This document shows positions 20,880-31,931 of a stretch of 64,000 nt of DNA, piece after piece. The notes beneath the pieces were generated by a model, which saw only the letters and a list, made by a program, of their open reading frames with translations, did no database searches and was not told the origin of the DNA. Origin of the DNA: Fervidobacterium changbaicum (GTDB lineage Bacteria > Thermotogota > Thermotogae > Thermotogales > Fervidobacteriaceae). Made by a program: the position numbers and the translations under genes. Each line of letters opens with the position of its first letter. Within the stretch, counting starts at the first letter, position 1. Location: the NCBI RefSeq assembly GCF_004117075.1, contig NZ_CP026721.1, positions 2,108,001-2,172,000 of the forward strand. Direction: 5' to 3'.

Positions 20880-21080
20880 GTTTAGGAAAATATCCCAAAA
20901 AACGTTTAAATTTGAGGCTTAGCGGTTCCCTTTGATATTTGACGAAAAGTTTCTCATTTCAACATAGTGTACAGCTTTCTTTTTATCGTTCAAAAACTTA
21001 AGACAAGTAGTATAATAAATATTGGAAAGTTTGAATAGCGAACTAATCTTTCAACTTGTTTTTTGAGGGGAGGGAACAGA

Positions 21081-21599
21081 ATGGAACTTCGGGAAGTGAT
21101 TTTGAAAAGAAGAAGTATAAGGAAATTTAAACAGGAAAGCGTGCCTTTCGATTTATTAAAACAGATTGCAAAATACTCCCTGTTAGCTCCAAGTGGCCGA
21201 AACTCAAGACCTGTTGATCTGGTTATTGTGACTGATAGAGATAAGATCCAAGAAATTAAGAGAGCAAGGCAGGGTGCGTTTTCATTTCTTGAAACAGCAC
21301 CTGCATGTATCGTTGTTGCAGCAAACGAAGTTAGTTCTACCTGGCTTTCAGATGCTTCTATCGTGGCCACATACATACAGCTTCTGTGCGTTGAAAACGG
21401 ACTTGGCAGTTGCTGGGGTCACGCACACGAACGTTTCCAAGATGGTATTTCCGTTGAAGCCAAGATTAAAGAAATACTTCACATTCCGGAAGGTTATAGG
21501 GTCTTGTGCGTGATAGGTATCGGTTATCCTGACGAGCAAAAAGACACACACGTTTTGGAAGAAGTTGATGAAAAGAAAATCCACATTAGCAAGTGGTAA
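21081..21599 (+). CDS. Nitroreductase family FMN oxidoreductase
   Basis: A 172-residue nitroreductase-fold protein. MELREVILKRRSIRKFKQESVP is the standard FMN phosphate-binding start. LLAPSGRNSRPVDLVIV, ENGLGSCWGHAHE and RVLCVIGIGYPDE follow. Such dimers use FMN and NAD(P)H to reduce nitro compounds, quinones or flavins; the substrate is not indicated. ATG 21081 has GAGGGGAGGG upstream, and a TATAAT at 21012-21017 is a likely -10. The DUF4438 gene follows after 54 bases. Confidence 0.88.
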   Translation: MELREVILKRRSIRKFKQESVPFDLLKQIAKYSLLAPSGRNSRPVDLVIVTDRDKIQEIKRARQGAFSFLETAPACIVVAANEVSSTWLSDASIVATYIQLLCVENGLGSCWGHAHERFQDGISVEAKIKEILHIPEGYRVLCVIGIGYPDEQKDTHVLEEVDEKKIHISKW

Positions 21600-21653
21600 A
21601 AATTGCATAGATCGTTTTTCGAAGAGCCTTACAGATGGAAGGGAGATGAAGAC

Positions 21654-22538
21654 ATGGGTGAACTAAAAAAAGAGAAAACAACGGATATACTTAAAACCAA
21701 CAAAGACCAGGTTGTCCAGCTTTCGATATTGGTTGAAGTAGCGCATCCTGTGGTTCGCATGCCTGTTGTCGATGGTGATGGTAATTCGTTCTACTTTCCG
21801 GGAGTTGGAGGCATTACTTACAACTTCGGGCTTGGTGATAACGCTTTCAAAATGCACGGTGATCACATCGAACCTGATGTTAGCACAAAGAACAAAGACA
21901 AAGATTTGAATCCCACATGCATGGCTCTTGCATGCATAGGAAATGAAGCAACGGTAGTATCCGGAGATGCAAAAGGCATGAAAGGCTACGTGATTGGAAA
22001 ACATGGAGGTATAGATCACATTCTTATTTGGTTCCCTGAAAAGGAAAAGTTAGCAATTGGTGATAAGATACAGATAAAAGCGTGGGGGCAGGGTTTGGAA
22101 CTTCTTGATTATCCAGAAGTGAAGGTTATGAACATAGACCCATGCCTGTTTGAAAAAATTCCAATAAAGCTCAAGAAAGGAAAACTCCACGTGCCAGTTA
22201 CCGCTGTAGTTCCTGCGCATTTGACAGGCTCTGGTATAGGGGCAGGTAATCCTGCAGCAACCGACTACGATATGAATACGCTCGATAAGGAGGAAATAAA
22301 AAAGTATGGTCTTGACAAAGTGCGTATCGGGGATTTAGTTGCTATATCAGACCACTATAATGGCTATGGAGCTGGAGGCTACAAAGGCGGAGCACTTTCG
22401 ATAGGTGTCGTAGTCCATTCAGATTGTTTTAAGACCGGTCATGGACCAGGTATGGTGATAATAATGACTTCCAAAGAAGGGAAAATTGTTCCCGTTATTG
22501 ACGAAAATAGTAATATAAAAAATTACCTTGAGATTTGA
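21654..22538 (+). CDS. DUF4438 family protein
   Basis: A 294-residue protein that I recognise as the DUF4438 (TM1086-like) family from its whole-length pattern: HPVVRMPVVDGDGNSFYFPGVGG, MHGDHIEPDVS, CIGNEATVVSGDAKGMKGYVIGKHGG, DIMN-type KVMNIDP, TAVVPAHLTGSGIGAG and DHYNGYGAGGYKGGALSIGVVVHSD. Function is unknown; histidine- and aspartate-rich conserved loops suggest a metal or nucleotide site. ATG 21654 has AAGGGAG upstream. A terminator follows 32 bases after the stop. Confidence 0.8.
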   Translation: MGELKKEKTTDILKTNKDQVVQLSILVEVAHPVVRMPVVDGDGNSFYFPGVGGITYNFGLGDNAFKMHGDHIEPDVSTKNKDKDLNPTCMALACIGNEATVVSGDAKGMKGYVIGKHGGIDHILIWFPEKEKLAIGDKIQIKAWGQGLELLDYPEVKVMNIDPCLFEKIPIKLKKGKLHVPVTAVVPAHLTGSGIGAGNPAATDYDMNTLDKEEIKKYGLDKVRIGDLVAISDHYNGYGAGGYKGGALSIGVVVHSDCFKTGHGPGMVIIMTSKEGKIVPVIDENSNIKNYLEI

Positions 22539-22570
22539 GAGTTCTTTAGATTTGTAAGTTGCTTCAACTT

Positions 22571-22594
22571 CCCGCCCATTGAGGGCGGGATTTT
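22571..22594 (+). terminator. Intrinsic terminator after the DUF4438 gene
   Basis: CCCGCCC, loop ATTGA, GGGCGGG and then ATTTTTATTT. It separates the nitroreductase/DUF4438 pair from the KASIII-TetR cluster. Confidence 0.9.
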
Positions 22595-22730: not shown

Positions 22731-22780
22731 TATAATGTGAAAGGTGATTCACATGAAATATGACATATGATTCACCTTTC
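22731..22780 (+). promoter_or_regulatory. Promoter -10 and long inverted repeat, probable TetR-type operator
   Basis: TATAAT at 22731-22736 is followed directly by an inverted repeat: 22739-22755 and 22764-22780, 17-base arms matching at 15 positions, with an 8-base spacer. Each arm also contains a near-palindrome (GTGATTCAC and TGATTCACC). The repeat covers the expected transcription start, where a bound repressor would block initiation. The -35 is poor (TCGTTC, 17 bases from the -10). The double-TetR regulator encoded second in the cluster is the obvious candidate ligand. Confidence 0.65.
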
Positions 22781-22831
22781 AACGAAGTATTTGTTAGAAT
22801 ACATTTTTATTTAAGAATAGGAGGTTTGGTT

Positions 22832-23815
22832 ATGAAGTACGCTAAGATCATTTCTTCAGGCATGTACGTTCCGCAGAAAGTCATGACGAATGCTGAGTTC
22901 GAAAAGCTTACGATGTTCACTATCGATCCGTATTTTTCTGATGTGATTGGTATCAACCACAGACATGTTTCTGAAGATTGGGAAACACCTACATATATGG
23001 CAGCGGAAGCTGCAAAAAAAGCACTTGCACGAGTCGGTATGAAGCCTGAGGAAGTTGACCTAATAATCGTTGGTACAGATACTCCGGAATCTGTATCCCC
23101 ACCGGATGCACCGAGAGTGCAGTATCTCATAGGCGCACACAAGGCAGAACCTCTCGCATTCAACGTGAATGCTTCGTGTGCGAATGGAGCACTAATGCTC
23201 GACATCGCTGCGAGATACATCGCTATGGGGGATTACAAAAACGTCCTTGTAATAGGCACGTACGCAATGACGAAATTCTTAAGTTGGAAATATTCTTGGG
23301 AAGCGCTTTTCAGCGATGGTGCAGGTGCACTTTTACTTACGTCATCTGATGAACCAGGATACATAGGTAGTGTGGCACGTGCTGATGGCAGCTGGTGGCA
23401 GAATTGGGGAATTTATATGGGTGCTGGTACAATGAATTTGGCAGGTTTCGAAAGAGGCCTCCACAAATTAGACCTTAGGGCAGCATATCCGTCGACGGTT
23501 AACGAAGAAGGCTGGCCGATGCTGATTAATAGGCTCATGGAGAAATACAGTATCACGAAGGACGAGATAGGCATGATTTTCTTCACGCAGGTGAGAAAGA
23601 AGACGATAGAGAAGGTTATGGAGATATTGGGCTTACCTGTTGAAAGAGCGCACATGATTATGCACAAATACGGCTACACGGGCTCTGCGTGTGTATACAT
23701 GGCTTACGACGACGCTTTCGATGAAGGGAAAATCGAGGAGTTGAAAGGAAAAGTGGTCATTTTCTTAACATCCGGTGTGGGATATCAACAAGTTGCTACC
23801 GCTTTCAGAATGTAG
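22832..23815 (+). CDS. KASIII-like (FabH/HMG-CoA synthase superfamily) enzyme with altered catalytic triad
   Basis: A 327-residue thiolase-fold condensing enzyme. The nucleophile cysteine is clear (NVNASCANGALML, C116), as are GTDTPESVSPPDAPRVQ, LFSDGAGALLL and the C-terminal TSGVGYQQVATAFRM. Where FabH has HQAN, this reads TQVR (252-255); where FabH has GNTSA, it reads GYTGSA (281-286) preceded by H278. The Cys-His-Asn triad is thus not conserved, so ordinary fatty acid initiation is doubtful; acyl transfer or a ketone-forming reaction on CoA thioesters is possible. ATG 22832 follows TAGGAGG. It heads a cluster with TetR, CoA-transferase and Liv-type transporter genes. Confidence 0.75.
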   Translation: MKYAKIISSGMYVPQKVMTNAEFEKLTMFTIDPYFSDVIGINHRHVSEDWETPTYMAAEAAKKALARVGMKPEEVDLIIVGTDTPESVSPPDAPRVQYLIGAHKAEPLAFNVNASCANGALMLDIAARYIAMGDYKNVLVIGTYAMTKFLSWKYSWEALFSDGAGALLLTSSDEPGYIGSVARADGSWWQNWGIYMGAGTMNLAGFERGLHKLDLRAAYPSTVNEEGWPMLINRLMEKYSITKDEIGMIFFTQVRKKTIEKVMEILGLPVERAHMIMHKYGYTGSACVYMAYDDAFDEGKIEELKGKVVIFLTSGVGYQQVATAFRM

Positions 23816-23894
23816 TACATTCGAATTCTTTGTAAAGCATGAATTATTTACCATGTTTACTGAATCACTTAGGGAAGGTGTGGAGGGACCGGTA

Positions 23895-25130
23895 TTGAAA
23901 AAAGACGTTTTGAAAGATGAACAATTATCTAATGGTTCAAAAAAGATGAAACGAATACCTCAGCGCGTAGATGGAATTGAATCAAAAGGCAAGCTTAAAA
24001 TGGCTGCTATTAAGCTTTTTAGTGAAAACAATTTTGCTGATGTGTCCATTTCTCAGATCGCTAAACATGCTGGTCTAAGCACCGCCGCTTTTTATCAATA
24101 CTACATTAATAAAGACGAATTGTTCAGAGAAATTGTTGATGAATTGATGGAAAATCTCAAAACAACGCTAAATGGTGATTCTATAACGGAAGTTGCTTTG
24201 AAATACTTCGAATTTTGTAGGTTAAACAAAGATTTAATTCAAGCGATTCACCTTAACGAGTACCATTTTGAATGGCTACGAAACGAGTTCGAAGAGCTCA
24301 TATACTCTGTTTCAGAAAAGTATGGGCTAACGGATGTTGGGCAGTTCTATTTCTGGTCACCTATAAGGTTTGTAGTGAACTTTGGCGATCTTTTGAACGT
24401 TGAAGTAGAGCCGAAAGCCTTTATCTCACTTATCATGAACGGTCTTCAAAGAAAAGAAAAAGGTTCCCGAAAACTTCCTAAGGAAATATTTGAATTCAAA
24501 CCAGAAAAGCACGTTCTAGAAATTGACGAAAAGCGAGAACTAATACTTGCGAATTCAGAAACGCTCTTTGGCACTTATGGTTACCAAAAAACACAGATAT
24601 ACGACATCGCAAGGTCATCTGGAATTGCAGTTGGAACTATTTATCTGTACTTTGAGAACAAAAAGGAAATCTTACGTGAACTGGTTCGATGGATAAACAA
24701 GGGATTAAGGTACAACGTCAGAAAGGCGCTGGAAAATGTTAAGAATTACCCAAGGTTGATTCAGGAAATTGCTGGATTGTATGCTTTTGTTCAGTTTTTC
24801 AAAAGCCATGCGAGTATGTACAAAATCGTGAGAGAAAGTCAATCGCTTGACTTGGAGATCGCAAAAGAATACTACTCTTCAATCTTTCAATCCTACTGCA
24901 AAGCCCTGAAAACTGCAATTCAAGATGGTCAACTGGACTTGGACATGGAACACCTTGATAATGTAGATTCCGAACGTATTCTAAGTTACATCGCCATGAT
25001 TTTCATGGGAATCGGTCACTACTTGGGCGAAAGATATGTTCTTGCTGGTAAGGTTACAGATACAAAAAAATTGGAACATTTCTTAGAGGAGATCTTTGTT
25101 TACCTGTCGGAAGGGCTGGGGGTGAAGTAG
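23895..25130 (+). CDS. Tandem double-TetR transcriptional regulator
   Basis: About 411 residues containing two complete TetR units in one chain. HTH 1 (about residues 31-80) is KMAAIKLFSENNFADVSIS..QIAKHAGLSTAAFYQYY. HTH 2 (about 213-262) is ILANSETLFGTYGYQKTQI..YDIARSSGIAVGTIYLYF. Each is followed by ~130 residues of helices as in a TetR ligand domain. TetR proteins normally are ~200-residue dimers. TTG 23895 lies seven bases after GGAGGG; ATG 23853 and GTG 23880 are alternatives. It presumably binds the inverted repeat at 22739-22780 and senses an acyl-CoA or the transported compound. Confidence 0.85.
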   Translation: MKKDVLKDEQLSNGSKKMKRIPQRVDGIESKGKLKMAAIKLFSENNFADVSISQIAKHAGLSTAAFYQYYINKDELFREIVDELMENLKTTLNGDSITEVALKYFEFCRLNKDLIQAIHLNEYHFEWLRNEFEELIYSVSEKYGLTDVGQFYFWSPIRFVVNFGDLLNVEVEPKAFISLIMNGLQRKEKGSRKLPKEIFEFKPEKHVLEIDEKRELILANSETLFGTYGYQKTQIYDIARSSGIAVGTIYLYFENKKEILRELVRWINKGLRYNVRKALENVKNYPRLIQEIAGLYAFVQFFKSHASMYKIVRESQSLDLEIAKEYYSSIFQSYCKALKTAIQDGQLDLDMEHLDNVDSERILSYIAMIFMGIGHYLGERYVLAGKVTDTKKLEHFLEEIFVYLSEGLGVK

Positions 25131-25131
25131 C

Positions 25132-26415
25132 GTGGATTTCAAAGATGAATATCAAAAAAGACTCACAAATATCGAAAACGTACTCTCAATCCTACAGGAC
25201 AATTGGACAATAGTTGTCGGAATGACTCCTATGGAACCTAAGGTTTTTCTCAGAAACCTTCATCGAACGCAAGCGAGCGGATTGGAAGTTTTCACGTGTT
25301 TGAACACAGAACCTTATGAATTTTGTTCAAAAGAAGAATATTCCAATAGATTCTACAACTATTCTTGGTTTTTTGGACCCTTCAATCGAAAGCTTTCGAA
25401 GAACACATACTACGTTCCAAATAACCTGCACCAAGCTGGAGTGAATTTGATACAGTCCACAAAAGTCAACGTTTTCGTTGGTGTAGCGTCTCCCATGGAT
25501 GAGAAAGGTTTCTTCACGCTGTCGGCGAGCGTTGTTTACGAAAAGGATGTGCTTGAGAATGCTGATATAGTTATCCTCGAAGTGAATCCCAACGCGCCGA
25601 GAACACATGGTGATACACATGTTCACATCTCTGAAGTTGATTACATAATCGAAGTAGACTATCCTTTGCCACAAGCCGAACTTCTTGAACCAGCTGAAGT
25701 AGAGGAGAAAATAGCACAGCATATTGTTGAACTAATAGAAAATGGCTCCACTATCCAGCTTGGTATTGGAGGAATTCCAAACGCCGTTGCAAAATTTCTG
25801 GTTGAGAAAAGAGATTTGGGCATCCACACGGAAATGTTCACCGAAAGCATGATAGATCTCTTTGAAGCTGGTGCCATAACGAATAAAAGAAAGACGCTTT
25901 GGAACGGGAAATTTGTCTGTACGTTTGCTTACGGCAGTGAGAGAATGTATAAATTCATCGATGATAACCCAGCTGTATTGTTTTTAAGAGGACGCTACGT
26001 GAATGATCCATTCGTAATCGCACAAAATGAAAAGATGGTTAGTATAAACACTGCACTTATGGTTGATTTAACTGGAAACGTATGTTCGGAAGCGATAGGA
26101 ACCAGTCATTACAGTGGTACTGGAGGTCAGCTTGATACTCACAGGGGAGCTGTAAAGAGCAAAGATGGAAAAGGCATCATTGCGATAAGGTCAACTGCAA
26201 AAGACGGACAAATTTCAACGATAGTACCACTGCTCCCTCAAGGTTCGCCGGTAACAGTCCCACGGCAAGAACTTGATTATGTTGTAACAGAGTGGGGTGC
26301 TGTGCGACTTAGAGGACTACCAACGCGTAAACGTGCACTTGCACTGATATCGGTGGCCCATCCGGATTTTCGCGATTATTTAACCAAAGAAGCCCAAAAA
26401 CTAGGATTAATCTGA
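25132..26415 (+). CDS. Acetyl-CoA hydrolase/transferase family CoA-transferase
   Basis: A 427-residue family I CoA-transferase, closest in motif to 4-hydroxybutyrate/acetate CoA-transferases. It has QLGIGGIPNAVAKFL, HTEMFTESMIDL with the catalytic glutamate (E234), SEAIGTSHYSGTGGQLD, and the C-terminal VVTEWGAVRLRGLPTRKRALALI. It would move CoA between acetyl-CoA and a carboxylic acid. GTG 25132 starts right after the TetR stop with GGGGGTGA upstream, so the two genes are co-transcribed. The acceptor acid is probably the compound imported by the following transporter (inference). Confidence 0.85.
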   Translation: MDFKDEYQKRLTNIENVLSILQDNWTIVVGMTPMEPKVFLRNLHRTQASGLEVFTCLNTEPYEFCSKEEYSNRFYNYSWFFGPFNRKLSKNTYYVPNNLHQAGVNLIQSTKVNVFVGVASPMDEKGFFTLSASVVYEKDVLENADIVILEVNPNAPRTHGDTHVHISEVDYIIEVDYPLPQAELLEPAEVEEKIAQHIVELIENGSTIQLGIGGIPNAVAKFLVEKRDLGIHTEMFTESMIDLFEAGAITNKRKTLWNGKFVCTFAYGSERMYKFIDDNPAVLFLRGRYVNDPFVIAQNEKMVSINTALMVDLTGNVCSEAIGTSHYSGTGGQLDTHRGAVKSKDGKGIIAIRSTAKDGQISTIVPLLPQGSPVTVPRQELDYVVTEWGAVRLRGLPTRKRALALISVAHPDFRDYLTKEAQKLGLI

Positions 26416-26454
26416 TTTTAAGCTTTTCCTATTCCATCAGAGGAGGTGTGTCAT

Positions 26455-27615
26455 ATGAAAAAGTTTCTAAGTGTTATTCTTATGCTTGTATTTTTGGTAA
26501 GCTTGTTTGCGGAAGTTGGGGTTTACGATGACAAAGTAGTCATTGGAACTTTCCAAGCACTGTCCGGTCCATATGCGATTATTGGCCAAGAGATGAGCAA
26601 AGGTATGAAGGCATATTTCAACTGGATTAACAGCAGAGGCGGAGTTTACGGAAGAAAGATAGAGCTCATAATTGCTGACGACCAACTCAACCCGGCAAAA
26701 ACTGTTGTTGAAGTCAAGAGGTTAGTTGAACAAGACAAAGTCTTTGCAATAGTTGGTGGACTTGGAACGTACGGTTGTTTAGCGGTTATGGATTACCTTG
26801 AGCAGAACAAAGTTCCATTCGTGTACCAAGGTGCAGGTACATCAAAACTTGTTATCCCACCGAAAAAGTACATCTTCGGAGTCCAACCAGACTATACACT
26901 TGAAGGAACACTGATTGCCAAGTACGTCGGAGAGATTGCAAAATTCAAGAACCCGGGGATTATTTACATGAACAACGATATTGGTTTGGAAGGATACGCA
27001 GCGTTCAAGGCTAAGCTGGAAGACTACAAGATGAAGCCAATTGTAGAAATTTCTTACAATCCAGCAGATACGGATTACAGCGGGCTTGTTGTAAAACTTC
27101 TTGAAAAGAACCCAGATGTGATAGTTATTTACGGATTAATTACAGATACAATCCGCTGGATAAAGACCATTCGTGACTACGGTCTCAACAGCAAGATAAT
27201 TACGATATATCCGAACGCAGACCCATCATTTATAACACTTGCTGGAAAGTACGCTGAAGGTATCATCTTCACTGGTTGGGTACCACTTGCAACACCAGAC
27301 AGACCAGAATTTGTAAGAGACTATCAAAGGGCAATTTCCATTTACCAACAGACGTACCCAAAAGAAGTTATGTCGTCCTACGCAGTTGCAGGTTTCATTG
27401 CCGCTGAAGTTTTCACGGAAGGTTTGGTCAGGGCAGGAAAGAACCTAACAAGAGAAGGGCTTGTAAAAGCACTTGAAAGCTTCAAGAACTGGAACGGTAT
27501 ACTTGCCAAAGATATCACGTGGGGTCCGAATATCAGACGCGGTAAGACGTCCATGTACTTCATGGTTGTGAAAAATGGACAGTTTGTACCTCTTACTGAT
27601 TTAATCAGGCCGTGA
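26455..27615 (+). CDS. Branched-chain-amino-acid-type ABC transporter substrate-binding protein (LivK-like)
   Basis: A 386-residue periplasmic binding protein. The signal peptide is MKKFLSVILMLVFLVSLFA. The mature part begins with VVIGTFQALSGPYAIIGQEM and continues NWINSRGGVYGRKIELIIADDQ, typical of the Peripla_BP_6 family, with later YNPADTDYSGLVVKL and VMSSYAVAGFIAAEVF. Ligands in this family range over amino acids, amides, urea and aromatic acids, so leucine should not be assumed. The ribosome binding site AGAGGAGGTG is very strong. A long stem-loop follows before the ATPase genes. Confidence 0.9.
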   Translation: MKKFLSVILMLVFLVSLFAEVGVYDDKVVIGTFQALSGPYAIIGQEMSKGMKAYFNWINSRGGVYGRKIELIIADDQLNPAKTVVEVKRLVEQDKVFAIVGGLGTYGCLAVMDYLEQNKVPFVYQGAGTSKLVIPPKKYIFGVQPDYTLEGTLIAKYVGEIAKFKNPGIIYMNNDIGLEGYAAFKAKLEDYKMKPIVEISYNPADTDYSGLVVKLLEKNPDVIVIYGLITDTIRWIKTIRDYGLNSKIITIYPNADPSFITLAGKYAEGIIFTGWVPLATPDRPEFVRDYQRAISIYQQTYPKEVMSSYAVAGFIAAEVFTEGLVRAGKNLTREGLVKALESFKNWNGILAKDITWGPNIRRGKTSMYFMVVKNGQFVPLTDLIRP

Positions 27616-27807: not shown

Positions 27808-28569
27808 ATGCTAAAACTTGAGAATATAAGTGTAAGGTTTTCGGGTCTTGTTGCTGTTGACAACCTTACTATGGAGGTTAAAGATAAAACGATACATTCG
27901 TTAATAGGTCCTAACGGAGCGGGAAAAACAACGGTTTTTAATGCTATATCCGGCTTAGTAAAACACGATGGTAGAGTCCTTCTTGACGGCAAGGATATCA
28001 CACACTTACCAGTGCACAAAAGAGTCTATCATGGTCTTGGAAGAAGCTTCCAAAATATCATTATCTTCAAGTACATGACCGTGTTGCAGAACTTGATGCT
28101 CGGTTATCATTCGAAACTTCAATACAATCATTTCGATGAAATTGTCTACACAAATAGATTTACTTTAGAGGAACGTAAAGCGAGATTGAGAGCCATAGAA
28201 GTTGCCGATTTGCTTGGTATTAAGACCATATTGGGAGTTTACGCTGGAACGCTTCCTTATGGTTTTCAAAAACTTATTGATGTAGGAAGAGCACTTATGA
28301 CGGAGCCAAAAATACTCCTTCTCGACGAACCTGCTGCGGGTTTAACGGAGAAGGAATCAGATATCCTTAAAGAGAAAATCATTAGGATAAGAGACAACGG
28401 CATTACGGTATTTCTCATTGAGCACGATATGAGAATGGTCCTTGATATATCAGACAGAATAACCGTGATCAACTTCGGCAAAAAGATCGCAGAGGGAACA
28501 ACACAGGATGTGGTAAATAACGAGGAAGTTATTAAAGCGTACTTGGGAACAGCTGTAACAGTTCAATGA
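27808..28569 (+). CDS. ABC transporter ATP-binding protein, LivG type
   Basis: A 253-residue ATPase. Walker A is GPNGAGKTTVFNAISGL. The signature region is the LivG-style TLPYGFQKLIDVGRALM, Walker B is ILLLDEPAAGL, and the H-loop is FLIEHDMRMV. The C-terminal IAEGTTQDVVNNEEVIKAYLG is characteristic of LivG. ATG 27808 has AGGAGTTGAG upstream. It energises the permeases LivH and LivM-hydrolase encoded downstream. Confidence 0.92.
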   Translation: MLKLENISVRFSGLVAVDNLTMEVKDKTIHSLIGPNGAGKTTVFNAISGLVKHDGRVLLDGKDITHLPVHKRVYHGLGRSFQNIIIFKYMTVLQNLMLGYHSKLQYNHFDEIVYTNRFTLEERKARLRAIEVADLLGIKTILGVYAGTLPYGFQKLIDVGRALMTEPKILLLDEPAAGLTEKESDILKEKIIRIRDNGITVFLIEHDMRMVLDISDRITVINFGKKIAEGTTQDVVNNEEVIKAYLGTAVTVQ

Positions 28570-28606
28570 TCACATCCAGTTGCATTAGCATAGTGAGGTG
28601 AAATTG

Positions 28607-29344
28607 ATGGAGAATGAAAAACTTGGTGAGCATTTAGATGTGAAAGATATCCTCGTTAAAAGCCTTAATGTATGGTATGGACCAGTGCATGCAGTTAAGG
28701 GTGTTGAACTTAGCATTCCAGCTGGAAGTATCACAGCGATCCTCGGAGCAAATGGAGCAGGCAAGAGTTCAACGTTGAAGGCGTTTGCGGGAAGTGTGAA
28801 ATACTCAGGGACAATAATTGTCGGTGATGAGTCTATCGATAGACTGCCCGTGCATGAAAGGGTAAGAAAAGGTCTTGTTCTCTGTCCAGAAGGCAGAGGG
28901 ATATTTTACCATATGACGGTAAAAGAAAATCTTCTGGCCGGTGCTTACACAAATAAAAAAGCGAACCTCGATTTCGTTTTTGGCATATTCCCATTTTTGA
29001 AGGAACGGCTCAATCAAATTGCCGGTACTTTGTCTGGTGGGGAGCAGCAGATGCTGGCAATAGCACGTGCACTGATGGCAGCCCCAAAGTATCTAATGTT
29101 AGATGAACCTTCTCTAGGCCTTGCGCCTATCGTTGTTCAGAGAATCACGGACGTCATAAAATACATAAACGAGAATTTAAAGATCACCGTAATATTGGTG
29201 GAGCAGAATACTTCTGTGGCTCTGAGTATCGCTCACCATGGTTATGTTTTAGAAAATGGAAAAGTTGCACTCCAGGGAAGAGCCGAGGAGCTCAGAGACA
29301 ATCCTGTCGTGCGTGAGAAATATCTTGGGGGTGTTAAAAAGTGA
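28607..29344 (+). CDS. ABC transporter ATP-binding protein, LivF type
   Basis: A 245-residue ATPase. It has Walker A GANGAGKSSTLKAFAG, LCPEGRGIFYHMTVKENLLAGA, signature LSGGEQQMLAIARALM, Walker B YLMLDEPSLGLAP and VEQNTSVALSIAHHGYVLENG, all LivF hallmarks. ATG 28607 has GTGAGGTG upstream. The stop overlaps the GTG start of the permease gene (GTGA), so translation is coupled. It pairs with the LivG-type ATPase. Confidence 0.92.
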   Translation: MENEKLGEHLDVKDILVKSLNVWYGPVHAVKGVELSIPAGSITAILGANGAGKSSTLKAFAGSVKYSGTIIVGDESIDRLPVHERVRKGLVLCPEGRGIFYHMTVKENLLAGAYTNKKANLDFVFGIFPFLKERLNQIAGTLSGGEQQMLAIARALMAAPKYLMLDEPSLGLAPIVVQRITDVIKYINENLKITVILVEQNTSVALSIAHHGYVLENGKVALQGRAEELRDNPVVREKYLGGVKK

Positions 29345-30219
29345 TAAACCAAATCCTTCTTGGACTTTCAACAGGTGCCATTTACTCTCTTGTTGCTATA
29401 GGGCTCGTCATGATGTACAAAGTGAGCGGTGTGATGAACTTTGCGTATGGAAATATGGGGATGTTTGTAACTTATGTAATCTGGTGGTTGAGTTCTTCCG
29501 CGGGTTTGAATTTGTATTTCTCAATAGCTATAGGGATAATTTTCGCGGCGATTATGGGTATCGCTGTTGAACGCTATGGTCTGCGCCCTATAAGACATCT
29601 TTCGCATGCTTCAATGCTAATCGTCACATTCGGAATTTTGATGATTTTAGAAGGTCTCGCAGTTGAAATTTGGGGAACCCAATACAAGGCATTCCCTGAA
29701 ATCGTTACGGGTACACCGTTTGTTATCCGCGGAGATTTCGGTATTGTGGTTATTCGTAGGCAGGATATTCTTGTATTCTCAATACTTGCCATCATTTCCC
29801 TTTTGTTAGCTCTATTCACGAAATTCACAAAATTTGGGATTGCTGTGCGTGCAGTTTCTGAAAATGAGGAAGTCGCCGGTTACATGGGAATAAATGTTGG
29901 ATCTGTGCTTGCATTTTCATGGGCTTTTGGAACAGCCATGGCGGCGATTGTTGGTGTGATTTCTGCACCAAAAGTGTTTGTTTCGCCTACAATGCTTACA
30001 TTTTATCAAATACAAGGCTTCACCGCCGCTGTCTTAGGAGGATTTGAAACTTTCACAGGAGCTGTTCTTGGTGGCTTGTTGCTTGGTGTCTTAGAGAAAA
30101 TTGTAGGTAACTACATCTCCGAAGGTTTTAAGGCTTCCTTCTCACTTGTCATAATCGTTTTGGTATTAATTTTCTTCCCGAACGGGCTGTTTGGAAGAAG
30201 ATTAAGGAGGCGAGCTTGA
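29341..30219 (+). CDS. ABC transporter permease, LivH type
   Basis: A 292-residue inner-membrane permease with about eight helices. LLGLSTGAIYSLVAIGLVMMYKVSGVMNFAYG is the LivH start, and GIAVRAVSENEEVAGYMGINV is the cytoplasmic EAA-like loop that contacts the ATPase. The GTG start overlaps the livF stop, and its own stop overlaps the ATG of the next permease. Complete, with the usual length. Confidence 0.92.
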   Translation: MINQILLGLSTGAIYSLVAIGLVMMYKVSGVMNFAYGNMGMFVTYVIWWLSSSAGLNLYFSIAIGIIFAAIMGIAVERYGLRPIRHLSHASMLIVTFGILMILEGLAVEIWGTQYKAFPEIVTGTPFVIRGDFGIVVIRRQDILVFSILAIISLLLALFTKFTKFGIAVRAVSENEEVAGYMGINVGSVLAFSWAFGTAMAAIVGVISAPKVFVSPTMLTFYQIQGFTAAVLGGFETFTGAVLGGLLLGVLEKIVGNYISEGFKASFSLVIIVLVLIFFPNGLFGRRLRRRA

Positions 30220-31931
30220 TGCTGTGGACTTGGCTGTTACTTGCACTACTGCCTTTCTTGCTTTTGAAGAGCGCGTTTATGATAACTATACTTAGCCTTG
30301 TTGGGATTTACGCACTCGCCGCCTTAGGTTTGAATTTGATAATGGGCTATTCAGGTCAGATTTCAATAGGGCATGCCGCTTTTATGAGCATAGGTGCATA
30401 TACCTCAACGCTACTGGTAATGAATTTTAATGTCCCTCTTGTCTTTGCGATGTTAATCGGTGGTTTAATTGCATTTGCCTTCGGCATTTTGATAGGTTTT
30501 CCTGCATTAAGGCTATCCGGATTTTACCTAGCCATTGCAACTATGGGATTTGTCGTAGCTATTGAGCAGATTTTTGGATACTTCGAACATATAACCGGCG
30601 GACATGCAGGTATAAGGAATATCCCGTTTCCACATTTGTGGAATTCTGATGTGGAAAAGTACCTCCTCGTGCTTTCTGTGCTCTTTGTGAGCTATGTCAT
30701 CTCTGAGAGGTTGATAAATTCGAGAACCGGTAGGGCTTGGATGGCAATAAGAGAGAACGAAACAGCTGCTGCAGTCATGGGAGTAAACAACGCATGGTTC
30801 AAAGTACTTGCTTTTGCGGTAGGTTCCATGTTCGCAGGACTTGCCGGCGCACTTTATGCGCATGTTATAGGTTACATAGCACCAAGCGATTTTGGAATTG
30901 CCAAGTCACTCGATCTATTGGCAGTCTCGGTCATTGGTGGAATGGCATCCGTTGATGGACCATTTTACGGAGCACTTATTTACGTTGCTATGCCATTTCT
31001 ATTCAGCAGATCCAATGTCCCACTTTCTATAATCTTCGGCGCTCTTTTGATCTTTGTTGTCCTCTTCATGCCGTTAGGAATTAGCTACTACATTAGAATG
31101 TTCAGAATGAACTATCTCAACGCACTACTTGTGCATTTAAAGAAATCCAGAAGGCCGTATGGAATGCTTGTTCAAACTCCAGCTGGACGGATTCACTACA
31201 TAAAGTACGGAAATGGGAATATTCCTATCGTGTTGGTTCACGGGAACTTCGCTTCAGCAAGATTTTTTGAACCACTTATAAAGAAAATTCCTCAAGAGAA
31301 ATACACAGTCTACGCGCTTGACTTGCCAAATTTCGGTTTCTCAGACGAACTCCCAGGAGATGTTAGCATTGAGAAATACGTTGATGCGCTAGAAAAATTT
31401 GTAGAAACTCTCGGGATAAGGAATTTCATTTTACTTGGTCACTCGCTTGGCGGTGCAGTTGCTATGGGCTACGCTGTGAGAAACCCCAAGAATCTGATTA
31501 AATTGATTTTAGTTGACCCAGCACCCGTCTTCGGTATGCCGCGATACGATGAATCAGCCTACAAAATTATAGATGTCTACAGGAAAAATCCGGAGCTGAT
31601 TAAACGAGCCTTAATGATGAACGCTCCAACTTACGATGATGAAAAATTCTTCGAAAGAATAACAGCAGATGCTCTTAGAATGGCAAAGAAAGCCTTTATA
31701 GGCAACGCAAAGGCACTGGCTGAATACAACTATTCTGACAAAGCCAAGAACGTTGAGATTCCTGTTGTTGTCATCTACGGCGACAAGGACGTGATACTTG
31801 ATTACATAAGTATGCAGAAAACCGCAGCGGCTTTCCCAAATGGTAAGTTAATAGTGCTAAAAGACATTGGGCACAGTCCTGCTATTGAATCACCGGAAGA
31901 GGTAATAAGACATTTTTCTGCCCGAGTTTAA
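30219..31931 (+). CDS. LivM-type ABC permease fused to a C-terminal alpha/beta hydrolase
   Basis: A continuous 570-residue frame. Residues 1-~295 are a LivM permease (LAALGLNLIMGYSGQISIGHAAF, GRAWMAIRENETAAAVMGVN, LAVSVIGGMASVDGPFYGA). After a short basic linker, residues ~310-570 are a complete alpha/beta hydrolase: oxyanion region VLVHGNFASARFF, nucleophile elbow GHSLGGA (S409), acid YGDKD (D524) and base DIGHSPAIESPEEV (H552). LivM C-termini face the cytoplasm, so the hydrolase should sit at the exit of the channel. The ATG follows AAGGAGG and overlaps the livH stop. I know no standard family with this fusion. Confidence 0.88.
   Translation: MLWTWLLLALLPFLLLKSAFMITILSLVGIYALAALGLNLIMGYSGQISIGHAAFMSIGAYTSTLLVMNFNVPLVFAMLIGGLIAFAFGILIGFPALRLSGFYLAIATMGFVVAIEQIFGYFEHITGGHAGIRNIPFPHLWNSDVEKYLLVLSVLFVSYVISERLINSRTGRAWMAIRENETAAAVMGVNNAWFKVLAFAVGSMFAGLAGALYAHVIGYIAPSDFGIAKSLDLLAVSVIGGMASVDGPFYGALIYVAMPFLFSRSNVPLSIIFGALLIFVVLFMPLGISYYIRMFRMNYLNALLVHLKKSRRPYGMLVQTPAGRIHYIKYGNGNIPIVLVHGNFASARFFEPLIKKIPQEKYTVYALDLPNFGFSDELPGDVSIEKYVDALEKFVETLGIRNFILLGHSLGGAVAMGYAVRNPKNLIKLILVDPAPVFGMPRYDESAYKIIDVYRKNPELIKRALMMNAPTYDDEKFFERITADALRMAKKAFIGNAKALAEYNYSDKAKNVEIPVVVIYGDKDVILDYISMQKTAAAFPNGKLIVLKDIGHSPAIESPEEVIRHFSARV

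Follow-up and report, generated by a model that had tools for sequence, protein, structure and literature searches.

In FabH, an enzyme of the ketoacyl-ACP synthase III (KASIII) fold, Cys112 is transacylated while His244 and Asn274 decarboxylate malonyl-ACP, and His244 is also credited with a part in activating the cysteine, according to PMC2680598. PMC9573744 describes ChlB3 and CerJ as KASIII-fold acyltransferases with a rebuilt Cys-His-Asp centre (C113, H296 and D301 in ChlB3), CerJ moving a malonyl group to a sugar hydroxyl. From the residue numbering and the comparison with DpsC given there, the histidine of ChlB3 probably occupies the place of FabH Asn274. A further activity relevant to the locus described below is that of PhaZ1 of Ralstonia, said in PMC3430594 to work by thiolysis.

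The window analysed here, a stretch of 64,000 nucleotides, is part of one 2.27-Mb contig (genome G000) from the phylum Thermotogota. An open reading frame at positions 22832-23815 of the plus strand, whose limits and reading frame proved correct, encodes a KASIII-fold protein of 327 amino acids, labelled KAS_A in this study. An AGGAGG ribosome-binding site (22819-22824) is located 7 nt before its ATG. Upstream of the gene, also on the plus strand, are a terminator-like hairpin with a T tail (22570-22590) and a promoter-like site with an extended -10 element (22771-22800); these two consensus matches suggest that KAS_A starts its own transcript. The DNA directly upstream, before the hairpin, codes for a small nitroreductase and a DUF4438 protein (21063-22538), a pair that also precedes KAS_A in several relatives (L005, L008, L051, L052). 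DUF4438 is a domain without known function.

KAS_A matched the Pfam domains ACP_syn_III and ACP_syn_III_C above cut-off. Its AlphaFold2 model (pLDDT 87.2, pTM 0.90) matched FabH along the whole length in Foldseek and superimposed on E. coli FabH 6x7r in VIA-align with a Z score of 43.0 and an rmsd of 1.9 over 314 residues. The weak stretch of the model comprises residues of about 191-220, the counterpart of a flexible loop in FabH; many positions of this segment are conserved in the 27 orthologs, W189, W192, G209-L210-H211 and N224-E226-W228 among them. Assignment to a described family was not obtained among the best 25 of 39 NCBIfam matches, in all of which KAS_A scored under the cut-off of the model. 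FabH models TIGR00747 and NF006829 gave 160.6 bits (cut-off 292.1) and 180.1 (249), respectively, PRK06840 (NF005308) gave 113.7 bits with a cut-off of 315, and the HMG-CoA synthase models gave 29.6 (TIGR00748, cut-off 353.35), 26.1 (TIGR01835, 360.35) and 52.4 (NF003274, 244). The domain Thiolase_N was matched by residues 53-148 only (32.5 bits versus 26.4) and the Pfam search returned no match to Thiolase_C, leaving the thiolase domain pair incomplete.

Comparative analysis was based on 28 sequences, namely the orthologs from the 27 genomes with KAS_A among 103 Thermotogota genomes searched (67-100% identity) and one homolog with 43% identity encoded on a Chloroflexota plasmid. The latter came from a plasmid collection in which 293 records matched, the sequences of four being examined (H1, H3, H7 and H8). 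A scan of contigs with two strict peptide patterns matched 89 stretches and yielded 13 relatives, all of them from Thermotogota.

Residue equivalences were taken from a sequence alignment with E. coli FabH that is gapless in the catalytic region. Cys112 of FabH corresponds to C116 (codon at 23177-23179, plus strand), which is a cysteine in all 28 sequences, so that the normal nucleophile motif reported in the first-pass annotation is confirmed. His244 and Asn247 of FabH are replaced by T252 and R255, the HQAN site of FabH being indeed TQVR in KAS_A (codons at 23585-23596). The T252-Q253-V254-R255 motif is invariant in all 27 Thermotogota orthologs and is kept in the Chloroflexota homolog, as is the motif G281-Y282-T283-G284-S285-A286-C287, in which Y282 takes the place of Asn274 (codons of Y282 to C287 at 23675-23692). 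The latter site had been read as GYTGSA in place of GNTSA; it aligns gaplessly with the GNTSAA of FabH, and therefore contains no inserted residue. With threonine at the position of His244 and tyrosine at that of Asn274 in 28 of 28 sequences, the proposed loss of the His/Asn pair holds for all of them. Since these changes are invariant in the Thermotogota orthologs and shared by the Chloroflexota homolog, KAS_A represents a maintained family rather than a product of chance or decay.

A histidine just before the GYTGSA site, H278 (codon at 23663-23665), had also been singled out. This position is not conserved, being H in 12, D in nine, E in five and N in one of the 27 orthologs and D in the Chloroflexota homolog, and thus it provides no stand-in for the catalytic histidine. 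H211 and H43, likewise considered as substitutes, are invariant in the 27 Thermotogota sequences but are replaced by S and T in the Chloroflexota one, and were rejected. The first-pass annotation had named as a counter-argument a histidine and an asparagine reaching the catalytic centre from other positions in the FabH geometry; at the sequence level there is no invariant histidine anywhere in KAS_A across the 28 proteins, and the only invariant asparagines are N20 and N224.

On the phylogenetic tree including all 27 orthologs KAS_A forms its own clade (support 97/93), apart from FabH and from KAS_B, a second KASIII-like family of Thermotogota corresponding to PRK06840 (NF005308, named '3-oxoacyl-ACP synthase'). 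A second tree, comprising 11 hand-picked orthologs of the 27 and the Chloroflexota homolog, recovered the KAS_A clade, again apart from the other two, with support of 99/97. Long branches meet in this second tree, and therefore no order among the KAS_A, KAS_B and FabH clades is claimed.

Proteins of this kind are annotated as 'ketoacyl-ACP synthase III', as the Chloroflexota homolog is, a label that for KAS_A would suggest fatty-acid initiation in a source organism seemingly without FabH. KAS_A might be regarded as a disguised FabH starting fatty-acid synthesis in a genome lacking any other KASIII, given that the source genome has a FabF-type gene but encodes no PF08541 protein, and thus none of the FabH type, besides KAS_A. 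However, Thermotoga maritima has a FabF-type match and no PF08541 match (this search matched 11 of 14 controls, and T. maritima, not among them, did give thiolase and FabF-type matches), and KAS_A had no match in 11 genomes of g3 and g13, so FabH is dispensable in the phylum. In addition, the KAS_A gene lies in a transport/CoA operon away from the fab genes, its product scores under the FabH cut-offs, and no KASIII is apparent in the fatty-acid synthesis cluster of a congener (L081), where FabD was identified by BLAST and FabF and other members by inspection. KAS_A was therefore rejected as a FabH replacement on the basis of T. maritima, the g3 and g13 genomes and the L081 cluster, and such a role is considered highly improbable.

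KAS_A heads an operon whose downstream genes, all on the same strand, encode a regulator, a CoA-transferase and a Liv-type ABC importer. The regulator (23775-25130) is of the TetR type with two TetR_N domains according to Pfam, its true start being probably downstream of the ORF start; regulators related to it accompany the module in other families. It is followed by an acyl-CoA:carboxylate CoA-transferase of the 4-hydroxybutyrate/butyryl-CoA:acetate type (25132-26415) and a Liv-type periplasmic substrate-binding protein (26446-27615), both assigned by profile matches, and by two ABC ATPases, LivG-like (27808-28569) and LivF-like (28598-29344), and a LivH-like permease (29341-30219), labelled by reading of their sequences. 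The last gene (30216-31931) encodes a LivM-like permease that continues at its C-terminus into an alpha/beta hydrolase; the hydrolase is a relative of PHB depolymerases, as indicated by a structure match and the scan of an ortholog. The best PDB match of the hydrolase part is poly(3-hydroxybutyrate) depolymerase 8ynv (1.5e-26), and the L038 ortholog of the fusion matched the intracellular PHA depolymerase model NF050089 with 103.4 bits, under its cut-off of 300. The fusion is in frame and was matched at E<=1e-60 in 58 of the 103 Thermotogota genomes, some of these matches covering one part only, while in L079 the gene is split. Genes for a thiolase and a FabG/PhaB-like short-chain dehydrogenase (SDR) are neighbours at another place in the genome (L072 9682-11654, equal to G000:C1:1991681-1993653). 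The 3-oxoadipate pathway was dismissed, as this thiolase scores 404.2 with the pcaF model, under the cut-off of 597 and less than with acetyl-CoA C-acetyltransferase models.

The same components accompany KAS_A in its relatives. In L040 and L057 a single gene run includes the TetR regulator, the CoA-transferase, a gene in the place of a thiolase (an assignment marked as questionable), an SDR, the Liv importer that includes the fused permease, and KAS_A; the start of the thiolase-place gene resembles the L045 thiolase by eye. The clusters of L037/L038 and L078 comprise KAS_B, the CoA-transferase, a Liv importer, an SDR, a second Liv importer with the fusion, KAS_A and a separate hydrolase. On the Chloroflexota plasmid the order is SDR, KAS_A, CoA-transferase, thiolase with a DUF35-type OB-fold partner, hydrolase and ABC genes. 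A Liv-type importer and an alpha/beta hydrolase are found beside KAS_A in all 27 genomes, the fused permease being less than 10 kb away in 25 of them, while in the other two (L039 and L059) Liv1 genes and a separate hydrolase are followed by KAS_A. The linkage to a CoA-transferase, which had been proposed from the single locus, is well supported: the enzyme is encoded in 27 of 27 genomes with KAS_A, in 19 of them no more than about 13 kb away on the same contig, and in three (G005-G007) of the remaining eight it is on the contig carrying KAS_B.

The slot corresponding to KAS_A is held by KAS_B in L045, L073, L074, L075, L077, L079 and L080. Across the 103 Thermotogota genomes, KAS_A only was found in 15, KAS_B only in 43, both in 12 and neither in 33. 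KAS_A or KAS_B co-occurs with the CoA-transferase in 68 of these genomes, a KAS protein alone is present in two, the CoA-transferase alone in one and neither in 32 (Fisher p 4e-23, with the relatedness of the genomes ignored). KAS_B passes the NF005308 cut-off (466-503 versus 315), and the Chloroflexota homolog of KAS_A reaches 178. At the position of Asn274 KAS_B has histidine, with aspartate at +5 (GH-x4-D), in 10 of 10 Thermotogota and three of three haloarchaeal sequences, and this spacing equals that of H296 and D301 in ChlB3. The histidine at the HQAN site of KAS_B can be aligned with FabH His244 (with gaps) or with Gln245, and no claim is based on it. The members of NF005308 compared here, including the protein encoded at L037 8064-9092, thus display a Cys, His, Asp pattern like that of CerJ and ChlB3 and unlike the Cys-His-Asn of FabH, which makes the name '3-oxoacyl-ACP synthase' doubtful for this model.

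Three haloarchaeal plasmids carry PRK06840-type KASIII genes (L085 8980-10014, L086 8989-9999 and L087 8956-9999); in each case the gene overlaps that of the last permease in a Liv-type ABC importer. No CoA-transferase is present in the plasmid stretches shown for these three, and the job shared by the two KAS families may therefore concern the imported substrate more than CoA. Such overlaps, found also between KAS_A and the permease-hydrolase gene in several relatives, would fit a subunit that binds acyl groups without catalysing a reaction, or that senses them, perhaps as a partner of the importer or the hydrolase; PqsB, the partner of PqsC, offers a parallel. A pure binder would have no need of C116 and much of the nucleophile region, which are invariant, and this function is deemed distinctly unlikely.

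The conservation of KAS_A in two phyla, its co-occurrence with the CoA-transferase and the slot it has in common with KAS_B argue for a separate catabolic acyl-transfer role. A Cys-dependent acyltransferase, rather than a Claisen condensing enzyme, operating in a transport-coupled module for hydroxyacid-type esters is the reading adopted here, and we give it about an even chance. The first-pass annotation had likewise expected a changed acyl-transfer chemistry acting on a CoA thioester, which would still be the best available interpretation. The loss of both His244 and Asn274, the pair with which FabH also stabilises the enolate, should remove condensation more than acylation; since His244 is credited with cysteine activation, its loss could weaken acylation too. 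The fold, the residues, their conservation, the operon and the co-occurrence are observed, and the acyl-enzyme, the direction of the reaction, the 3-hydroxyacid type of substrate and CoA as the partner are inferred.

According to the proposed pathway, an acid ester or oligomer would be imported by the Liv-type ABC transporter and cleaved by the alpha/beta hydrolase fused to its permease, the acid would be activated by the CoA-transferase, and the resulting acyl-CoA might be converted to acetyl-CoA by the SDR and thiolase encoded elsewhere in the genome. KAS_A itself would make no C-C bond; acyl groups would be bound as acyl-S-Cys116 and exchanged with CoA in one direction or the other. Most economically, its role would be thiolysis, a CoA-dependent acyl transfer in which CoA accepts the acyl group of the imported ester or of the hydrolase product. 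This step is not forced by the pathway, as a canonical thiolase, a CoA-transferase and a hydrolase would suffice for 3-hydroxyacid breakdown in the absence of KAS_A. Moreover, W32 and R151 of FabH, which are presumably the residues gripping the CoA adenine, are not kept in the alignment with KAS_A (Y or H, and a gap, respectively), so CoA may not bind there as in FabH.

KAS_A may instead still make or break a C-C bond by a non-decarboxylative Claisen or retro-Claisen reaction, as OleA or HMG-CoA synthase do, with Y282, Q253, R255 or an acidic residue (such as D83 or E86 from across the dimer) in the place of His/Asn. D83 is found in every one of the 28 sequences, E86 is present in all 27 Thermotogota orthologs and is D in the Chloroflexota one, the module contains acyl-CoA and beta-ketoacyl enzymes, and in the L037/L038 cluster two KASIII-like proteins and an SDR occur where no thiolase was seen. 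However, the ordinary FabH proteins of Thermotogota are also acidic at the E86 position (D in three of three), so E86 was discarded as an OleA-like sign; a standard thiolase is already available in several full modules and in the source genome, and both His244 and Asn274 are lost. We regard this alternative as unlikely. Formation of an ester or amide by CerJ-like O- or N-acyl transfer from an acyl-CoA to an imported alcohol or amine would agree with the fold and the cysteine shared with CerJ, whose transfer of malonyl to a sugar hydroxyl is covered in PMC9573744, whereas the surrounding hydrolase, CoA-transferase, SDR and thiolase point to breakdown; it is considered very unlikely.

A more specific form of the acyl-transfer reading is that KAS_A might add a third catalytic type to the KASIII fold, in which Cys116 together with the invariant Q253, R255, Y282 and C287 would replace the Cys-His-Asn and Cys-His-Asp centres and, coupled with the permease-hydrolase fusion, use CoA for the thiolysis of imported hydroxyacid esters. 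Such an enzyme would allow an anaerobe to save the energy of the ester bond as a thioester, although we consider this tentative proposal rather unlikely.

No description of the KAS_A family was found in the largely open-access literature searched, and nothing on its operon came from PMC10057702 and PMC5674127. Within the KASIII fold, KAS_A is a new and hitherto unnamed variant whose gene belongs to a defined transport-linked module. If confirmed, its role would give the thiolase superfamily one more catalytic arrangement and provide the first testable function for the transporter-linked module of Thermotogota and Chloroflexota, with a related pairing of KASIII and importer in Haloarchaea.

Comparison with known systems places KAS_A near FabH in its whole fold, Cys nucleophile and GxG C-terminal loop, while it differs in the replacement of His244, Asn247 and Asn274 by Thr, Arg and Tyr, in its identity of 27-30% to the FabH sequences compared and in its gene setting, a transport/CoA operon instead of the fab operon. 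Thiolases belong to the same superfamily, and a true thiolase is encoded elsewhere in the genome. KAS_B shares with KAS_A the slot with the CoA-transferase and Liv importer, and both are non-canonical at the His/Asn sites; their identity is 21-24%, and with Tyr and Cys where KAS_B has His and Asp, the KAS_A centre would, in the favoured reading, differ from that of KAS_B. The precedent of CerJ and ChlB3, the His-Asp spacing of KAS_B and the common genomic slot favour acyl transfer for both families. CerJ and ChlB3 were not among the 50 VIA-align matches listed for KAS_A, which excludes nothing. The likeness of KAS_A to these two enzymes is that of a KASIII fold probably turned to acyl transfer, with an altered centre around a common cysteine and in another pathway; because KAS_A lacks the H and D of their triad (having Q253, Y282 and C287, the last two at the His and Asp positions), the precedent holds for the class of reaction rather than for the residues.
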